This document shows, piece after piece, positions 9,020-64,000 of a stretch of 64,000 nucleotides of DNA; the stretch's first letter is position 1, and the number at the start of each line of letters is the position of its first letter. The stretch spans positions 62,001 to 126,000 of the forward strand of contig JAFKEE010000019.1 in the NCBI GenBank assembly GCA_017307505.1, given 5' to 3'. The position numbers were made by a program, and so were the translations under genes. The notes under the pieces are model-generated. The model was not told where the DNA came from. It saw only the letters and a list, made by a program, of their open reading frames with translations, and searched no databases. Source of the stretch: Acidobacteriota bacterium. Its GTDB lineage: Bacteria > Acidobacteriota > Terriglobia > Bryobacterales > Bryobacteraceae.

Positions 9020-10240
9020 CTAAACAGTCTCGAGTTGGGTTCGTTTGGTCTCCGGCAACAGGAAGACCAGCAGGGAAGCCGCAAGAAAAAACGCGGAGTT
9101 GAGTCCCAGCGCCGCACCTAGTCCAAAGTGATCCGCCAGCGATCCCACGGCGTATGGCGCCAGCGCGCTCAAACCTCGCCCAAAGTTGTACACAAATCCC
9201 TGGCCCGCGCCCCGGATGGCCGTTGGATACAACTCCGCCAGCATCGTCCCAAAAAGCGAAAAGAACCCCGTCCCGAAGAAGCCGATGCACGGCCCCAGCA
9301 CCAGCAGCAGCATCGGTGAGATCCGCGGCGCCAATCCGTACAATGGCGTCAGCAGTGCTGCGATGCCGACATAAAATGCGAACGCCGGCCGCCGCCCAAA
9401 CCGGTCCGCCAGCACCCCAAAACACAGGTACCCGTAAAACGCTCCCATCTGCACCGCGAACACAAAGCCGCTCGTCTTCAGAATGCTCATTCCTGCGCCG
9501 CCCTGTTCCACCGGCGACGAAAGGAACCCGGGCAGCCAGGTGAACAGGCCCCAATAGGCAAACAGCACACTCGTGGCGAGAATCGTCGCCCACAGGGTTC
9601 TGCGCCCAACTGGCGGCCGGAAGATACCCAGGAAACTGGCCTTTTCCGTCGACTTCACCCAGATCTCCGGCTCGACCACCTTCCGCCGGATAAACACCGT
9701 CACCAGCGCCGGCAGAACGCCCGCCAGAAACAGCGCGCGCCAGCCATAGGCCGGCAGGATCCATGCCGACAATCCAGCCGCAGCCATGTACCCCAGTGCC
9801 CAACCCGACTGCATGAAACTAACTGCCTTCGCCCGATGCTCCGCCGGCCACGACTCCGCCACCAGCGTCGCTCCGGCCGACCACTCCCCGCCAAGCCCTA
9901 ACCCCACCAGCGCCCGCCAGAAAACAAGGTCCACAATCCCGCGGGAAGTCGCTGTCCCCGCCGACGCCAGGGAATACAGAAGGATGGTGTAGATCAGAGT
10001 CCGCCGCCGCCCGATCTTATCGGAAACGATGCCCGCGAAAATGCCGCCGGCCGCCGAAGTAATCAGCGTCACCGACGAAACCAACCCGGCCTGCGCGTTC
10101 GTCCATCCGAACTCCGCCTTCAGGGTCGTCAGGGCGAAGACGTACAGCAGCACGTCCATCGCGTCGAGCATGAAACCTAGCTGCGCTGCCCACAATGCCA
10201 GCCAGCGGGGCGTGGTAAAGACACCTTCGAAGAACCGCAC
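9020..10240 (-). CDS. MFS transporter, sialate:H+ symporter/metabolite type
   Basis: A 406-aa major facilitator protein with twelve membrane segments. TM1 reads LGFMLDAMDVLLYVFALTTL, the TM2-3 loop GIVSDKIGRRRTL is the classic MFS motif A, and LGLGGEWSAGATLVAESWP in TM4 is typical of the NanT/ShiA-like metabolite symporters. The substrate could be an organic or sugar acid but is not determined. The start codon is GTG. It is transcribed divergently from the secreted propeller gene across a 168-base spacer. Confidence 0.89.
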   Translation of the reverse strand: MRFFEGVFTTPRWLALWAAQLGFMLDAMDVLLYVFALTTLKAEFGWTNAQAGLVSSVTLITSAAGGIFAGIVSDKIGRRRTLIYTILLYSLASAGTATSRGIVDLVFWRALVGLGLGGEWSAGATLVAESWPAEHRAKAVSFMQSGWALGYMAAAGLSAWILPAYGWRALFLAGVLPALVTVFIRRKVVEPEIWVKSTEKASFLGIFRPPVGRRTLWATILATSVLFAYWGLFTWLPGFLSSPVEQGGAGMSILKTSGFVFAVQMGAFYGYLCFGVLADRFGRRPAFAFYVGIAALLTPLYGLAPRISPMLLLVLGPCIGFFGTGFFSLFGTMLAELYPTAIRGAGQGFVYNFGRGLSALAPYAVGSLADHFGLGAALGLNSAFFLAASLLVFLLPETKRTQLETV

Positions 10241-10408
10241 GGTTAGGGGTCAGTATAGCTTTTATGGCCGACGCAGCCCCACTCCCAAACCCTGCCCAAT
10301 CGCGCTGGACGCCGCTCTCCCGCCATCGCAAACCTTTCCGCAACCTTTCTGCCGCAATGCGAATCTGCTATAAGAGTTAGATCACTGGGACACTCTGGAG
10401 GCCGATTT

Positions 10409-11395
10409 ATGTTGAATAAAGCCACACGCGCTGTACTCTGTTTGGCTCTGGCTGCGGGATCCGCCGCGGCACAGGAATCTGCCCTCAGCGGTCCGGTTTC
10501 CGGCCTGTTGATCGATGAACAATCCCGCTCGGTGCGGCCCATCATCGGAATGCCCGGCTCCGCCTACGCCGGCAACCCGCTCGTGCGGTCTTTCGATTTC
10601 GCGTCCACCGCGCCGGACGGCCGCAACGCCCTGGTGGCCAAAGACCAGTCCCTTTACCTGGTCCGGCGTCTCGACGGCGGCGCGCCCGTATGGCGTGAGT
10701 TCGCCAAGGACGCCGCAATCCCCTCGCGCGTCATCTGGAGCGACGGCGCTGAGTCCGTCGGTCTGCTCAATGCCGACGCAACCCGCTTGGACCTCTGGTC
10801 CGGGCTCGCGTCCGGCCCTAAACTGAGCGGCACCGTCGACCTCTCCGGCATCACCGAACGAATCGTCTCCCTGGCCATGGACAAGAACGCGGGTTTCGCG
10901 TTCGCCGCCACGCAGGGTGAGTCTTCAGGCACACTCTATCTCCTTACCCCGGGCTCCGAGCCTCGCATGCTGATGCCGCTCACCCAGGCAGGCTCGCTGT
11001 TGCTCACCGGCAACGCCCTCTACGTGGCTGACCGCGGACTCAGCACCGTCACCCGCGTCACCAACTGGGAGCAGAACCCGAATCTCGCCAGTGTGGCTTC
11101 CGCCGGCAGCGGCGTGGCCGATCCGGTTGGCGTCGCTCTCTCTCAGGACGGCAAACTCCTCTACGTAGCGAATGCCGAGTCCCGCCAGATCCTGGCCTAC
11201 GACCTCAGCTCCAATACGCTGAAGGGCGCCCTCGACCTCGACTTTGTACCCAGCGGCCTCGACCGCATGGGCTCCAATTCGCTCTTCCTGCTGCGCAAGG
11301 GGATCGCCGGCGAACAGCCCGCCCAGGTGCTGGATACGGTCTCGCAGAGGGTGTACTTTGTGCCGGTCGGCCTTGCCGTCAGCGGCGGCGAATAA
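10409..11395 (+). CDS. Secreted beta-propeller (NHL/YncE-like) protein of unknown function
   Basis: The 328-aa product starts with a signal peptide (about residues 1-21, ending SAAAQ). The rest shows repeated blade-like units such as GVALSQDGKLLYVANAESRQILAYDLSSN, as in YncE/NHL and lactonase-type propellers. No catalytic residues can be assigned. A ribosome site (CTGGAGGCC) lies about 8 bases before the ATG. A TATAAG box at 10369-10374 could serve as its -10. It precedes the FG-GAP gene by 48 bases and may be co-transcribed with it. Confidence 0.78.
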   Translation: MLNKATRAVLCLALAAGSAAAQESALSGPVSGLLIDEQSRSVRPIIGMPGSAYAGNPLVRSFDFASTAPDGRNALVAKDQSLYLVRRLDGGAPVWREFAKDAAIPSRVIWSDGAESVGLLNADATRLDLWSGLASGPKLSGTVDLSGITERIVSLAMDKNAGFAFAATQGESSGTLYLLTPGSEPRMLMPLTQAGSLLLTGNALYVADRGLSTVTRVTNWEQNPNLASVASAGSGVADPVGVALSQDGKLLYVANAESRQILAYDLSSNTLKGALDLDFVPSGLDRMGSNSLFLLRKGIAGEQPAQVLDTVSQRVYFVPVGLAVSGGE

Positions 11396-59840: not shown

Positions 59841-60631
59841 AACCCGAAGAGATGGTGGTTGCGATGAGTCCGGTGGAGCCCGCGCTGATGGAGTTCCGCC
59901 AGGTCGAGAAGATGTACGGCGAGGGCAGCGCGTCGATGCGAGCACTGGCCGGTGTCGATTTCCGGATCGAAGAGGGCGAGTTTGTGGCGATTATGGGGCC
60001 GAGCGGATCGGGCAAGTCGACGTGCATGAACATCCTGGGTTGCCTGGATACGCCGACGGGCGGGGCGTATCTGTTCAAGGGGATCGATGTGGGAAGGCTG
60101 CCCCGGAAACAGCGGGCGCGGCTGCGGCGGTATTACCTGGGGTTTGTGTTCCAGGGGTTCAACCTGCTGGCGCGGACCTCGGCTCTGGAGAATGTCGAAC
60201 TGCCCCTGATTTACCGGGGGACGAAGGCGGCTGAGCGGCGGGACCGGGCGGCGGCCGCGCTGCAGACCGTTGGGCTGCAGGGTTGGGCAGACCATACGCC
60301 GGCGCAGCTTTCGGGGGGTCAGCAGCAGCGGGTGGCGATTGCGCGGGCGATTGTGACGGAGCCGGCGGTGCTGCTGGCGGATGAGCCGACGGGGAACCTG
60401 GATTCGGCGCGGAGTGAAGAGATTATGGAGCTGCTTTGCCAGCTGAATGAGACGCGCGGGATTAGTATCGCCATGGTGACGCATGAGCCGGAGATGGCGG
60501 AGTATGCGAGCCGGACGATTTCGTTCCGGGACGGGCTGGTGGCTTCGGATGTGCGGAAGGCGGAGGGACGGAAGAGAGCCGGCCAGGGGGCCGGCTGCGG
60601 ACCTGGGGGTCCGCCGTCCCAACGAGGATGA
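59837..60631 (+). CDS. ABC transporter ATPase, MacB/LolD type
   Basis: A 264-aa ATPase with Walker A GPSGSGKSTCMNILG, Q-loop FVFQGFNLLARTSALENVELPL, signature LSGGQQQRVAIARAI, Walker B VLLADEPTGNLD and H-loop VTHEPEMAEYA. It powers the permease encoded downstream. The usual domain ends near residue 235; the last 25 or so residues (GRKRAGQGAGCGPGGPPSQRG) are Gly/Pro/Arg-rich and coincide with a twin-hairpin repeat (60577-60614) that has entered the coding sequence. Its ATG overlaps the adaptor stop. Confidence 0.95.
   Translation: MKPEEMVVAMSPVEPALMEFRQVEKMYGEGSASMRALAGVDFRIEEGEFVAIMGPSGSGKSTCMNILGCLDTPTGGAYLFKGIDVGRLPRKQRARLRRYYLGFVFQGFNLLARTSALENVELPLIYRGTKAAERRDRAAAALQTVGLQGWADHTPAQLSGGQQQRVAIARAIVTEPAVLLADEPTGNLDSARSEEIMELLCQLNETRGISIAMVTHEPEMAEYASRTISFRDGLVASDVRKAEGRKRAGQGAGCGPGGPPSQRG
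60577..60614. repeat. Twin-hairpin repeat inside the 3-prime end of the ATPase gene
   Basis: Hairpin A is AGCCGGCC-AGGG-GGCCGGCT (60577-60596) and hairpin B is GCGGACC-TGGG-GGTCCGC (60597-60614). Hairpin B is found again at 60964-60981 with AGGG as loop. Confidence 0.75.
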
Positions 60632-61290
60632 CTATCCGGCTTTCGCTGGCTTTCGCGGCGCGGGGCTGTGTGGATTGCTCGCCGGTTGTGGTTCACCACG
60701 CGGCGGGGACGACTCCGTTGAAGACGCCCGGGCTAGCCCGTCGCTGGCGCTTGGGGACTCAGGGGGTGCGGGATGGCCGGGAGGAGGGACGCGATGGGTC
60801 AGTGGCCCGCTCCTTACCAGTCGCGGTTCGCAGCGGGGGTCGGTCCGGGCTGGGGTGGGAGCTGTCCGGGAGAAAAGACGACGGTTTTGGGGTCCGCTCG
60901 ATTGAACGTCGGGGTCCTGGTGGGCCGCGATTCGGCTCCGCGTGGTCGACCAGGGGGTCGACCGCGGACCAGGGGGTCCGCCTTACTGTATGGGCCGCTG
61001 TCGGGGTGGTTCCTTGGGTTTTGCGGTCTGCCGGGGTATGGGGAGTCGTTGCCTGTCGGGGTTCGCAGTGCGGCGGGGGGAAGCGTCGGCCGCTCCGGGT
61101 CTCGACGGGGTGCGGGCTGGCCCGGAGAGGGGACGCGATGGGTCTGTGGCCCGCTCCTTACCAGTCGCGGTTCGCAGCACGGTGGGGACCACTCCCTTAC
61201 GGTCGTGGTTCGTTGTGGGGCGTGATTTGGTGATGGATGGATTGATGAGGCTGGTTGGCGTTGGAGTTGGTTTGGAAGGTAGGCAATGTC
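60632..61290 (+). repeat. 659-base gene-free G-rich repeat block splitting the MacB-type operon
   Basis: Between the ATPase and its permease there is no convincing gene: open frames exist in several phases but only because the region has few stops, and their products are low-complexity Arg/Gly/Ser. The block holds a direct repeat of 49 bases with one mismatch (60786-60834 and 61130-61178), whose similarity extends about 20 bases further upstream, a twin hairpin at 60944-60981 (GGTCGACC-AGGG-GGTCGACC then GCGGACC-AGGG-GGTCCGC), and a tail (about 61166-61216) related to the repeat at 48.4 kb. Confidence 0.75.
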
Positions 61291-62505
61291 ATGCTTTGGG
61301 ACGCGATTCTGTTGGCTCTTTCGGCGATCCGGCGCAATGTGATGCGCTCGACGCTTACGGTGTTGGGGATCGTTATCGGCGTTGCCGCGGTGATTATTAT
61401 GGTCACGCTGGGCAACGGCGCTACGGCTCGGGTGACCTCGGAGATTTCCAGCCTTGGTGCGAACATGCTGATGGTCATGCCGGGGCAGGAACGGCGCGGC
61501 ATGGGCGGCGGGATGCGGGAAGAAGCGAAGCTGTTTGAGGCCAGTGACGTCGAGGCGCTTCGCGATGAGGTGCCGGGCGTCAGCGCCGTGGCTCCTACCG
61601 CTTCGAAGTCCATGCAGGTGATCTATGGGAATACCAACTGGTCGACCACGGTGAACGGGGTCGACAACGCGTATCTCCAGGTGCGGAACTGGACGCTGGC
61701 CAGCGGACGCGCTTTCTCGGAGGCGGAGCTGAGCGCGGGCGGCGCGGCGTGCATCCTGGGCGCTACGGTGCGGAAACAGCTGTTTGGGACGCAGGATCCG
61801 ATTGGGGTGAATGTGCGGCTGCAGGCGATCTCCTGCCAGGTGGTGGCCGTGCTGGAGTCGAAGGGGCAGGCGGGCATGGGGATGGACCAGGACGATCTGG
61901 TGTTGACGCCGCTGCGGACGTTCCAGCGAAGGATCTCGGGCAATCGCTACATCAGCAGCCTGCTGGTGGGTATGCGGGCAGGCTCCATTTCCTCGGCGGT
62001 CGTGGCGGATGTGCAGAAACTGTTACGGCAGCGGCGCAAGATTCAGCCGCAGCAGGAAGACGACTTCATGGTGCGCGATCCGCAGGAGCTGATCAGCACA
62101 CTGACGGGCACCACACAGCTCCTGACGATGCTGCTGGGGGCGGTCGCCGCGGTGAGCCTGCTGGTGGGCGGCATCGGGATTATGAACATCATGCTGGTCT
62201 CGGTGACGGAGCGGACGAGGGAGATTGGGGTGAGGCTGGCGATTGGGGCGTTTGAGCACGATGTGATGACGCAGTTCCTGGTGGAGGCGGTGGTGCTGTC
62301 TTCGCTGGGCGGGGCGATGGGCCTGACGTTGGGGCTGCTGGTCTCAGTGGCGGGCGCGAAGGCTCTGGAGGTGCCGTTCCAGCCGGATATGCGGATTGCC
62401 ACGATCGCCTTTCTCTTCTCGGCGATGGTGGGCGTGTTGTTTGGATTTGTGCCGGCGCGCAAGGCTGCGCAGCTGGATCCGATCGAAGCGCTGCGGCACG
62501 AGTGA
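61291..62505 (+). CDS. ABC transporter permease, MacB/FtsX type
   Basis: A 404-aa permease: N-terminal membrane helix after MLWDAILLALSAIRRNVMRSTLTVLGIVIGVAAVIIM, a periplasmic MacB core (residues about 45-270), and a C-terminal FtsX block with three membrane segments (from residue 285), including MNIMLVSVTERTREIGVRLAIGA and the ending PARKAAQLDPIEALRHE. It should form the pump with the upstream ATPase and adaptor. The ATG at 61291 gives the normal N terminus; a frame from 61255 adds 12 residues. A repeat block has been placed between it and the ATPase gene. Confidence 0.94.
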   Translation: MLWDAILLALSAIRRNVMRSTLTVLGIVIGVAAVIIMVTLGNGATARVTSEISSLGANMLMVMPGQERRGMGGGMREEAKLFEASDVEALRDEVPGVSAVAPTASKSMQVIYGNTNWSTTVNGVDNAYLQVRNWTLASGRAFSEAELSAGGAACILGATVRKQLFGTQDPIGVNVRLQAISCQVVAVLESKGQAGMGMDQDDLVLTPLRTFQRRISGNRYISSLLVGMRAGSISSAVVADVQKLLRQRRKIQPQQEDDFMVRDPQELISTLTGTTQLLTMLLGAVAAVSLLVGGIGIMNIMLVSVTERTREIGVRLAIGAFEHDVMTQFLVEAVVLSSLGGAMGLTLGLLVSVAGAKALEVPFQPDMRIATIAFLFSAMVGVLFGFVPARKAAQLDPIEALRHE

Positions 62506-62509
62506 GGGA

Positions 62510-62869
62510 TCAGCGACTGGGGCCGCGCCAGGCTGCGCCGACATGGTCAGTGAGCGGACGGCGTGGGGCCTTGCGGCGGTGGGCGGCCTCAGCGCGAGCG
62601 GCGGCGCATTCGGCGTAGCGGCTCATGTCGGCTTCGGCATAGGTGAAGGCGTGGTTGGTGGTGGTTTCGTAGCCCTGTTCCAGAACCGAACGGCATAACA
62701 GCGGCAGTTCCTGGAGGCGGATGCCGTACTGGCGGGACATGGCCAGGTTGGTTGTGACGCTATAGGGGGTACGACTGCGGTCAGCGGCTACGCCTTCGAA
62801 CTGGAAGACACGCGCGCCGAGCGTCTCTTTAAACCCGGTCAACACAAACTGCATTTTCGGTTTATCCAA
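62510..62869 (-). CDS. Small protein of unknown function, third gene of a small-gene operon
   Basis: The 119-aa protein begins MQFVLTGFKETLGARVFQFEGVAAD (from ATG 62854) or with five more residues from the TTG at 62869, which has GGAG 7 bases upstream. It has no signal peptide, membrane helix or known motif; the end is Ala- and Arg-rich (YAECAAARAEAAHRRKAPRRP). The first half looks like an alpha/beta domain. It is 26 bases after the GIY-YIG-like gene and ends 4 bases from the convergent permease gene. Function not recognised. Confidence 0.68.
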   Translation of the reverse strand: MDKPKMQFVLTGFKETLGARVFQFEGVAADRSRTPYSVTTNLAMSRQYGIRLQELPLLCRSVLEQGYETTTNHAFTYAEADMSRYAECAAARAEAAHRRKAPRRPLTDHVGAAWRGPSR

Positions 62870-62895
62870 TGAAATGCTCCTTTCCCTTTCGACGA

Positions 62896-63198
62896 TTATT
62901 TCTGCGGCGATGGCGGATGCGGCTGGGCCGGTTTGTACTCGAGGATCAGGCTGGCCAGGCGAACCACCTGACGGGCCCGATCGCAGACCTCAAAGACAAA
63001 ACCGGTGGGCCGTTGGATGGAGTTGGCGGACCCGGAGAGTGCCACTCGTTCCAATAGCGCTTGCTGGATGTTATCCGCGTCACCGATATACAGCCATTCC
63101 GTGGCGTTCGATAGTCCGTAGACGCCAGGCAGCGGGGGAGCATGCTCCCGGATGGAACCTGCTGTGAACGACCGGGGAAAAGGTCTTTCAAACGGCAT
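62896..63198 (-). CDS. Small GIY-YIG-like protein, probably not catalytic
   Basis: A 100-aa protein whose middle reads LPGVYGLSNATEWLYIGDADNIQQALLERV: a GVY...YIG pair spaced as in GIY-YIG nucleases, followed by the helix position where the catalytic Arg should be; here Gln/Ala stand there and no conserved Glu follows clearly. It may be a binding protein with a nuclease-like fold. AGGGA precedes the ATG at 63198 by 6 bases. It lies 9 bases after the 71-aa gene. The GIY-YIG link rests on one motif pair. Confidence 0.62.
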   Translation of the reverse strand: MPFERPFPRSFTAGSIREHAPPLPGVYGLSNATEWLYIGDADNIQQALLERVALSGSANSIQRPTGFVFEVCDRARQVVRLASLILEYKPAQPHPPSPQK

Positions 63199-63207
63199 GA
63201 GGCATCC

Positions 63208-63423
63208 CTATTTCTTCCCCGGCGCAGCGCCCCGTACCTTGTCCTGTTCGAGCACCGCCTTGAGGCGCGTCACGAGGGACTTGCCCAAGGTGATGTCTTC
63301 GGATTTGGATATGTATCCCGGCATTTTTGGATCGATGAACTCGCGACGGAACAGTTGATCGGAAGCGAGGGAGACCAAAAGCTCAATCTCGTGGGTGCTG
63401 AGCTTCACCGTTTTCTGCATCAT
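63208..63423 (-). CDS. Small protein of unknown function, first gene of a small-gene operon
   Basis: A 71-aa protein (MMQKTVKLSTHEIELLVSLASDQLF...; ending RLKAVLEQDKVRGAAPGKK) with a helical, charged body and no signal peptide. The stretch REFIDPKMPGYISKSEDI is unassigned. No ribosome site is clear in front of it. It is divergent from an XRE regulator gene across 293 bases; I do not recognise a family. Confidence 0.62.
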   Translation of the reverse strand: MMQKTVKLSTHEIELLVSLASDQLFRREFIDPKMPGYISKSEDITLGKSLVTRLKAVLEQDKVRGAAPGKK

Positions 63424-63609
63424 GCGCCGCCTGCGTGGCGTCCCGCAGGGGTTCCTACCGGGAGGACTGATAACGGCCGGGCGACTTGAGGACAGGGATG
63501 GTCCTTTGACATGGCAACCTCCTCCGGTTGTAGGGTTGGGGCTAAGAGGACAGGACAGGCAGCGTGACTTAGTTCAGGCGGCCGGTGACTGAACGGAGGT
63601 GTCCAGACA

Positions 63610-63695
63610 TTAACCATTGTTAGTTAACTGAAGTTGCAAGTCAAGGCACGAAGTGACACAATTGGGAGCCGCTGATTTACTTACCGAAGTTAAGT
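63610..63695. promoter_or_regulatory. Candidate XRE operator/promoter region
   Basis: Two inverted repeats, TTAAC-(8)-GTTAA (63610-63627) and ACTTA-CCGAAGT-TAAGT (63679-63695), flank a weak promoter-like pair TTGCAA (63634-63639) and CACAAT (63657-63662) with a 17-base spacer. This AT-rich island differs from the surrounding GC-rich sequence. The rest of 63424-63609 shows no gene. Confidence 0.33.
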
Positions 63696-63716
63696 TACAT
63701 TCGGGCCGGAGCACAC

Positions 63717-64000
63717 GTGGACGTCTCGCTACTGATCAGGCAGCGCCTGAGCGAAGTTGGCCTGGACCAGAAGGATCTGGCTGCCGCCGCGCAGGTGACG
63801 GAATCTTACATCTCCCAGCTATTGGGCCGGAAGAAGGCGCCGCCGGCGCCGGGGCGTACGGACATCTACGAAAAGCTCGAGCGGGTGTTGCGTGTGCCGG
63901 TTGGCGAGCTGTCGAGACTGGCGGATGTGCAGCGCCGGGCGGAGATCAAAAAGAAGGCGGCGGAACCGCCTACGCCTCTCTTCAAGGACTGCCGCGATCT
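63717..64000 (+). CDS. XRE-family helix-turn-helix regulator, N-terminal part
   Basis: A GTG at 63717 with GGAG 5 bases upstream opens a frame that runs off the window end (94 codons visible). The product starts VDVSLLIRQRLSEVGLDQKDLA, with the helix-turn-helix of the Cro/CI type: DLAAAAQVTESYISQLLGRKK. The following IYEKLERVLRVPVGELSRLADVQRR is a usual XRE flank. The remainder is unknown. It should repress or activate the divergent small genes, itself, or both. Confidence 0.82.
   Translation, partial: MDVSLLIRQRLSEVGLDQKDLAAAAQVTESYISQLLGRKKAPPAPGRTDIYEKLERVLRVPVGELSRLADVQRRAEIKKKAAEPPTPLFKDCRD

Follow-up and report, generated by a model that had tools for sequence, protein, structure and literature searches.

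At one end of a 64,000-nucleotide stretch of Acidobacteriota DNA we identified a locus that probably switches a small stress operon at two levels, through an autoregulated stress repressor and through a cis-acting leader RNA. The whole stretch, hereafter the window, covers positions 62001-126000 of C56, a contig of a 9.4-Mb genome. The following features of the locus, listed from the regulator leftward, are referred to throughout:

63717..64000, plus strand: XRE gene, GTG start, first 94 of 292 codons; helix-turn-helix (HTH) at residues ~8-68, C-terminal domain past the window
63676..63693, no strand: O2 dyad, TTTACTTACCGAAGTTAA, one mismatch to TTAAC-N8-GTTAA, just 5' of the XRE start
63616..63644, minus strand: small-gene promoter, sigma-70-like (TTGACT, 17 nt, AACAAT)
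63610..63627, no strand: O1 dyad, TTAACCATTGTTAGTTAA, exact TTAAC-N8-GTTAA, sharing bases with the -10 of the small-gene promoter
63590..63605, minus strand: leader hairpin H1, in the RNA leader of the small-gene mRNA
63556..63585, minus strand: leader hairpin H2, a 12-pair helix in the family with 9/12 pairs kept here; loop ACTAAG; 51.9 bits with model R1
63542..63546, minus strand: CTTAG, proposed pseudoknot strand, complementary to loop CTAAG (63568-63572)
63515..63530, minus strand: Shine-Dalgarno in a short inverted repeat, CAACC-GGAGGA-GGTTG
63420..63512, minus strand: leader open reading frame of 30 codons (MSKDHPCPQV...), predicted only; its stop overlaps the s71 start
63208..63423, minus strand: s71 gene, 71 aa, conserved DQLFRREFIDPKMPG core (21 sequences); 59/200 family genomes
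62896..63198, minus strand: GIY100 gene, 100 aa, GIY-YIG-like without catalytic Arg and Glu; 76/200 family genomes
62510..62869, minus strand: s119 gene, 119 aa, TTG start, three strands plus helices with a predicted DUF1488-like fold; 122/200 family genomes

Searches over 101 genomes, including the window's own, indicate that all four open reading frames encode conserved proteins and are not chance frames. Single-sequence searches returned matches in 21 of these genomes for s71, 24 for GIY100, 38 for s119 and 25 for XRE, and profile searches did so in 59, 76, 122 and 54 of 200 family genomes, respectively. The initial annotation, made from the letters alone, had placed frames of 71, 100 and 119 aa opposite a divergent XRE gene, and the open reading frames of the window agree with it in position and in the spacing of 9 and 26 bases within the triad. 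It had also recommended extending the sequence past 64 kb, which revealed that the window contains only the 5' part of the XRE gene, whose full-length product has 292 aa. The downstream end of the triad adjoins a gene that, judging by its sequence, is ABC-permease-like. Separately, between two ABC-transporter-like genes, repeated GC-rich stretches at 60628-61233 give rise to overlapping open reading frames with repeated peptides.

The AT-rich spacer does contain the inverted repeats noticed at first reading, and both are conserved. A promoter scan of 62400-64000 returned one promoter-like site, that of the small genes (0.5 expected from shuffles). Its -35 TTGAC is invariant across 18 aligned loci, and its -10 lies inside the N8 of O1. 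Upstream of the 26 XRE genes of the discovery set, the dyad was exact at 16 and present with at most one mismatch at 24, being absent at two loci (G082 and G099). In 38 held-out XRE upstream regions, fetched afterwards, the corresponding counts were 26 and 37, as compared to 0 and 1 for a reversed-pattern control at the same loci. Among 80 loci from named genomes, which overlap the two previous sets because they partly come from the same genomes, 40 dyads were exact and 76 had at most one mismatch (reversed control, 0 and 0); like the other counts reported here, these come from related sequences and are not independent of one another. A second copy usually lies approximately 65 bp from O1, nearer the XRE start. 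Since O1 covers the -10 and O2 precedes the XRE start codon, promoter logic points to repression of both the small-gene operon and the XRE gene itself.

When the window's genome was scanned, the exact dyad occurred at two places only, versus five for the reversed control. No wider regulon is therefore apparent in this genome, and the known target is this locus. In two species we observed a second exact TTAAC-N8-GTTAA site with another core (G000:C39:55204-55221, locus L151; G006:C1:333817-333834, locus L150), and inspection of the L151 neighbourhood revealed no evident link to the small-gene operon.

Directly after O1, 41 of 64 XRE upstream regions carry the leader, composed of H1, a long H2 with ACTAAG or GCTAAG as its usual loop, and a CTTAG 8-13 bases beyond it; the leader is not present in the remaining 23. 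Its structure is supported by covariation. We collected 43 leaders with a pattern demanding the loop and its complement, and aligned 40 of them, leaving out L129, L130 and L176, whose 5' parts align poorly. Paired cells make up 79.7% in this alignment; shuffles give 70.0%, and sliding the structure leaves no more than 38.9%. Two-sided changes occur in 16 of the 18 pairs of H1 and H2, and for each of the five measures none of 500 shuffles reached the observed value. RNAalifold alone recovered nine H2 pairs and did not recover H1. Because the 43 leaders were picked by the loop and complement pattern, the pseudoknot is tested only by copies outside that set. Of 31 such copies, 29 are followed by an exact loop complement within 28 nt, as are all 14 of a second set (43 of 45 outside training; expected 0.2 and 0.0); the second set comprises those of 39 matches that were judged not to repeat earlier genomes. 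The loop pentamer barely varies, and its pairing hence rests more on complementarity than on covariation.

Because its 3' end is at the ribosome site, the leader most likely sets the translation of the small-gene mRNA. The free-energy fold of the window copy is no better than those of shuffles (z -0.18) and departs from the consensus by pairing the Shine-Dalgarno with H1; one may speculate that the consensus and this computed fold represent two states of a switch. Directly 3' of the leader, the predicted open reading frame at 63420-63512 (minus strand) has a good ribosome site. A frame of approximately 30 codons is also found in G006, and there is no such start in G005; in several relatives a small membrane protein or another small gene occupies this position.

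We searched 200 family genomes with model R1, which was built without the 3' CTTAG, and obtained 66 matches in 52 genomes. By context, 18 lie near both XRE and a triad gene, 15 near XRE, 22 near a triad gene only and 11 near neither. Overall, 55 of the 66 adjoin XRE and/or precede s71, GIY or s119 on the same strand, including 22 with no XRE nearby. The 31 leaders away from XRE precede GIY, s119 or s71 genes, or members of c21, c16, c37, c26 or c10, which are gene clusters defined in this analysis. In three genomes (G168, G110 and G022) the GroES-GroEL operon lies behind the leader. A dyad with at most two mismatches accompanies 10 of these 31 leaders and is absent from 21 which, together with the 23 of 64 XRE upstream regions that have no leader, indicates that the two layers of control are separable. 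In G042 the small-gene operon, preceded by the leader and a near-dyad, resides on a different contig from XRE, an arrangement that fits control in trans. Phylum-wide, the leader was detected in 3 of 396 genomes at E <= 1e-4, and the two besides the window's own both have it beside an XRE gene. Rfam 15 returned no match to the leader at gathering score, and nothing relevant at E <= 5 in window positions 63100-64000 or at E <= 0.5 in the loci of eight relatives.

To characterize the gene set around the regulator, we considered 58 XRE matches, which are 64 rows minus six second pieces of split genes. All three small genes lie within 6 kb on the opposite strand in 14 of the 58, at least one in 36 and none in 22; one of the 36 loci with a small gene has the GIY gene on the same strand. 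The initial annotation had allowed that the three proteins might turn out to be unrelated fragments or to co-occur in no other genome, but the triad recurs elsewhere as a divergent unit (14/58 with all three). Several split XRE genes, which match in at least two pieces because of a frameshift, a stop or an internal deletion, retain their dyads (L114 ~9983-10826, L137 ~9718-10489, G223:C428, G209:C554 and G216:C34).

We found 307 relatives of XRE in named genomes and kept 80 for locus analysis. Their MAG labels, taken as written, include Acidobacteria, Rokubacteria, NC10/Methylomirabilota, Gemmatimonadetes, Betaproteobacteria, Gammaproteobacteria and Nitrospirae. XRE also lies beside GroES-GroEL on scaffold KB906767.1 of strain KBS 96, a cultured member of the family. 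On the divergent side of these 80 loci, where upstream sequence longer than 2 kb was available at 67, GroES or GroEL occurs at 20, s71, GIY or s119 at 30, and any member of the set at 60. Near XRE in relatives there are GroES-GroEL, RRM proteins, small membrane-like proteins, a secreted-like protein and a small CxxC protein, which matched zinc-ribbon models under their cut-offs only; the GroES, GroEL, membrane and secreted labels were read from the sequences. The GroES-GroEL and RNA-binding neighbours suggest protein and RNA stress as the context of the locus, and the triad appears to be part of a set of stress genes that is widespread among soil bacteria and under double control. On the 3' side of XRE, a glycosyltransferase (GT) or GH130 gene is present at 20 of the 80 loci, and at L114:10850-16597 and similar loci of several genera XRE is followed by a conserved glycosyltransferase/GH130 phosphorylase/glycosyltransferase operon.

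The regulator matches HTH_3 with E 1.1e-5 for the 94-aa part and 1.5e-4 for the whole protein. Pfam (E <= 0.05) returned HTH_3 and HTH_31 only for the whole protein and NCBIfam (E <= 0.01) TIGR03070 only, a HipB-type antitoxin model matched at E 6.2e-5, far under its cut-off. The PDB sequence search gave no relative at E <= 0.01. The predicted structure (pLDDT 81) has Foldseek matches mostly confined to the HTH, DdrO being the first (E 0.017). DdrO-type XRE repressors, the best match of the model, are nevertheless approximately 130 aa long, as compared to 292 aa here, and no common C-terminal domain is shown.

None of the small proteins has a Pfam match at E <= 1 or matches an NCBIfam toxin model. 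The initial annotation had seen in the middle one a GVY...YIG pair without the catalytic Arg and a nuclease-like fold, and family data uphold both. The GIY100 family profile is similar over residues 20-93 to GIY-YIG structures of UvrC (best E 1.9e-4), and the Pfam GIY-YIG model matches 4 of 23 family members (best 4.4e-5), the window copy not being among them. At the catalytic columns of the family alignment, two of the 23 sequences have Arg and none has Glu; these two positions are catalytic in GIY-YIG nucleases. GIY100 thus resembles the UvrC domain in profile, but is a stand-alone protein of 100 aa with the catalytic residues mostly lost. For s119 the predicted structure has a mean pLDDT of 86.9, and the top VIA match of residues 2-83 is the DUF1488 protein 2gpi (Z 5.8, rmsd 2.7, 75 residues; next 4.3). 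The predicted fold may be DUF1488-like; identity is 5%, and s119 has a C-terminal extension, as well as cold-shock domain fusions: two relatives carry such a domain N-terminal to the s119 domain (L144:13774-14337 and L124:8519-9145). DUF1488 is not among the Pfam matches of 26 s119 members at E <= 0.1. Foldseek gave nothing for the s119 model at E <= 0.001, and we rejected its list, mostly tyrosine phosphatases, as noise. The conserved core of s71 has no usable PDB or Pfam match; resemblance to response regulators (MtrA; NCBIfam E 0.0036, PDB E 0.31) and to Trans_reg_C (Pfam in 2 of 21 members, best 0.05) was considered too weak.

We propose the following mechanism, which is built on the arrangement of genes and sites. 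The XRE protein would bind, possibly cooperatively, the two TTAAC-N8-GTTAA sites, which lie approximately 65 bp from each other between the divergent promoters; once bound, it would cover the small-gene -10 at O1 and sit ahead of its own start codon at O2, repressing both the operon and the XRE gene itself. During stress, a signal received through the large C-terminal domain would release the repressor. The leader of the resulting mRNA, with H1, H2 and the pseudoknot between loop CTAAG and CTTAG, would then set translation from its position just 5' of the Shine-Dalgarno. The small proteins, namely a pseudo-nuclease GIY-YIG protein, a DUF1488-like protein and a DQLFR protein, would be auxiliary and probably nucleic-acid- or protein-binding, as members of a proteostasis and RNA stress set that includes GroES-GroEL and RRM proteins in relatives.

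Other explanations have to be weighed against this one. The sign of control is not proven by site geometry alone, and some XRE proteins activate transcription, so that XRE could be an activator or dual regulator of the small-gene promoter. We regard this as unlikely because, following promoter logic, a dimer on O1, which is centred on the -10 hexamer, should block RNA polymerase. Harder to dismiss, although still doubtful, is the possibility that the leader hairpin serves as a palindromic protein site in the DNA or as an attenuator of transcription instead of as a translational RNA switch: in several copies H2 reads as an almost perfect inverted repeat, and the leader starts immediately 3' of the promoter. 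Many of the retained pairs are however G-U, which are not expected to be kept in DNA palindromes, the scan found no terminator-like site at the leader, and the loop complement lies just 5' of the Shine-Dalgarno region.

The initial annotation had read the layout as that of a toxin-antitoxin, defence or competence locus, with one small protein as toxin or nuclease and XRE as antitoxin or regulator. Small ORFs do accompany XRE, and its HTH has the weak HipB-type similarity described above, but the genes are divergent rather than co-transcribed, and XRE occurs without them at 22 of the 58 matches. Apart from one marginal hit for the 100-aa protein (E 0.059), PADLOC matched nothing but the HTH part of the regulator. 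The phage search gave no match for the 100- or 119-aa protein, the plasmid search none for XRE and the viral-contig search none for s71; since these searches, together with PHROGs, yielded HTH matches and marginal hits only, toxin-antitoxin, defence and phage origins were rejected. With the GIY-YIG catalytic residues lost, and chaperones, RNA-binding RRM proteins, small membrane proteins and the glycosyltransferase/GH130 operon as neighbours, such a system is highly improbable. It is nearly as improbable that the cluster is a loose set of lineage-specific genes held together by shared descent. Strong small-gene matches do come almost entirely from one family, whose members share ancestry; the same controls, however, precede different gene orders in different genera, and MAGs with Rokubacteria and NC10 labels have them alongside XRE genes.

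The two-layer switch that we favour can be compared with known systems of chaperone control. As in HrcA/CIRCE, a repressor would act on a short inverted repeat at a promoter, often beside its own gene, but here the HTH is of XRE type with an unmatched C-terminal domain and the targets are small proteins. Given that HTH_3, HTH_31 and TIGR03070 were the sole matches at the thresholds above, XRE does not fall within HrcA, and the CIRCE inverted repeat differs from TTAAC-N8-GTTAA. Pseudomon-groES RNA (RF01721) and RNA thermometers likewise are leader RNAs in front of chaperone genes, but the leader described here has no Rfam match. By analogy, the locus would work like HrcA/CIRCE combined with a chaperone leader RNA, while belonging to neither as far as tested. 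In the table of Weinberg 2010 (PMC2864571), Rfam numbers are given for Acido-1, Acido-Lenti-1 and Pseudomon-groES and none for Solibacter-1 and Soil-1. As the latter two carry no Rfam number there, the leader may already have been sighted as one of them. Searches of the open PMC full-text library, at the level of listings and abstract beginnings, turned up no paper describing the XRE regulator, the dyad or the leader.

If our reading is right, chaperone and stress genes of soil Acidobacteriota, a phylum that is large but has been little studied, gain a named regulator, a defined operator and a leader RNA. The known structured RNAs would also grow by one that Rfam 15 lacks, and three protein families without function would be given a context. 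More tentatively, and with somewhat less than even confidence, we suggest that a new XRE repressor family and a new class of pseudoknotted leader RNA could form a so far unrecognised stress-control system of Acidobacteriota and of MAGs of other soil and groundwater phyla, controlling GroES-GroEL and small proteins and replacing HrcA/CIRCE or a heat-shock sigma factor there. As a minor observation, a radical SAM/B12-binding gene lies 3' of XRE (L002:6733-8280; from 64732 in window numbering, hence outside it), and the same gene is found near XRE in several genera (G000, G005, G006, G034 and G039).
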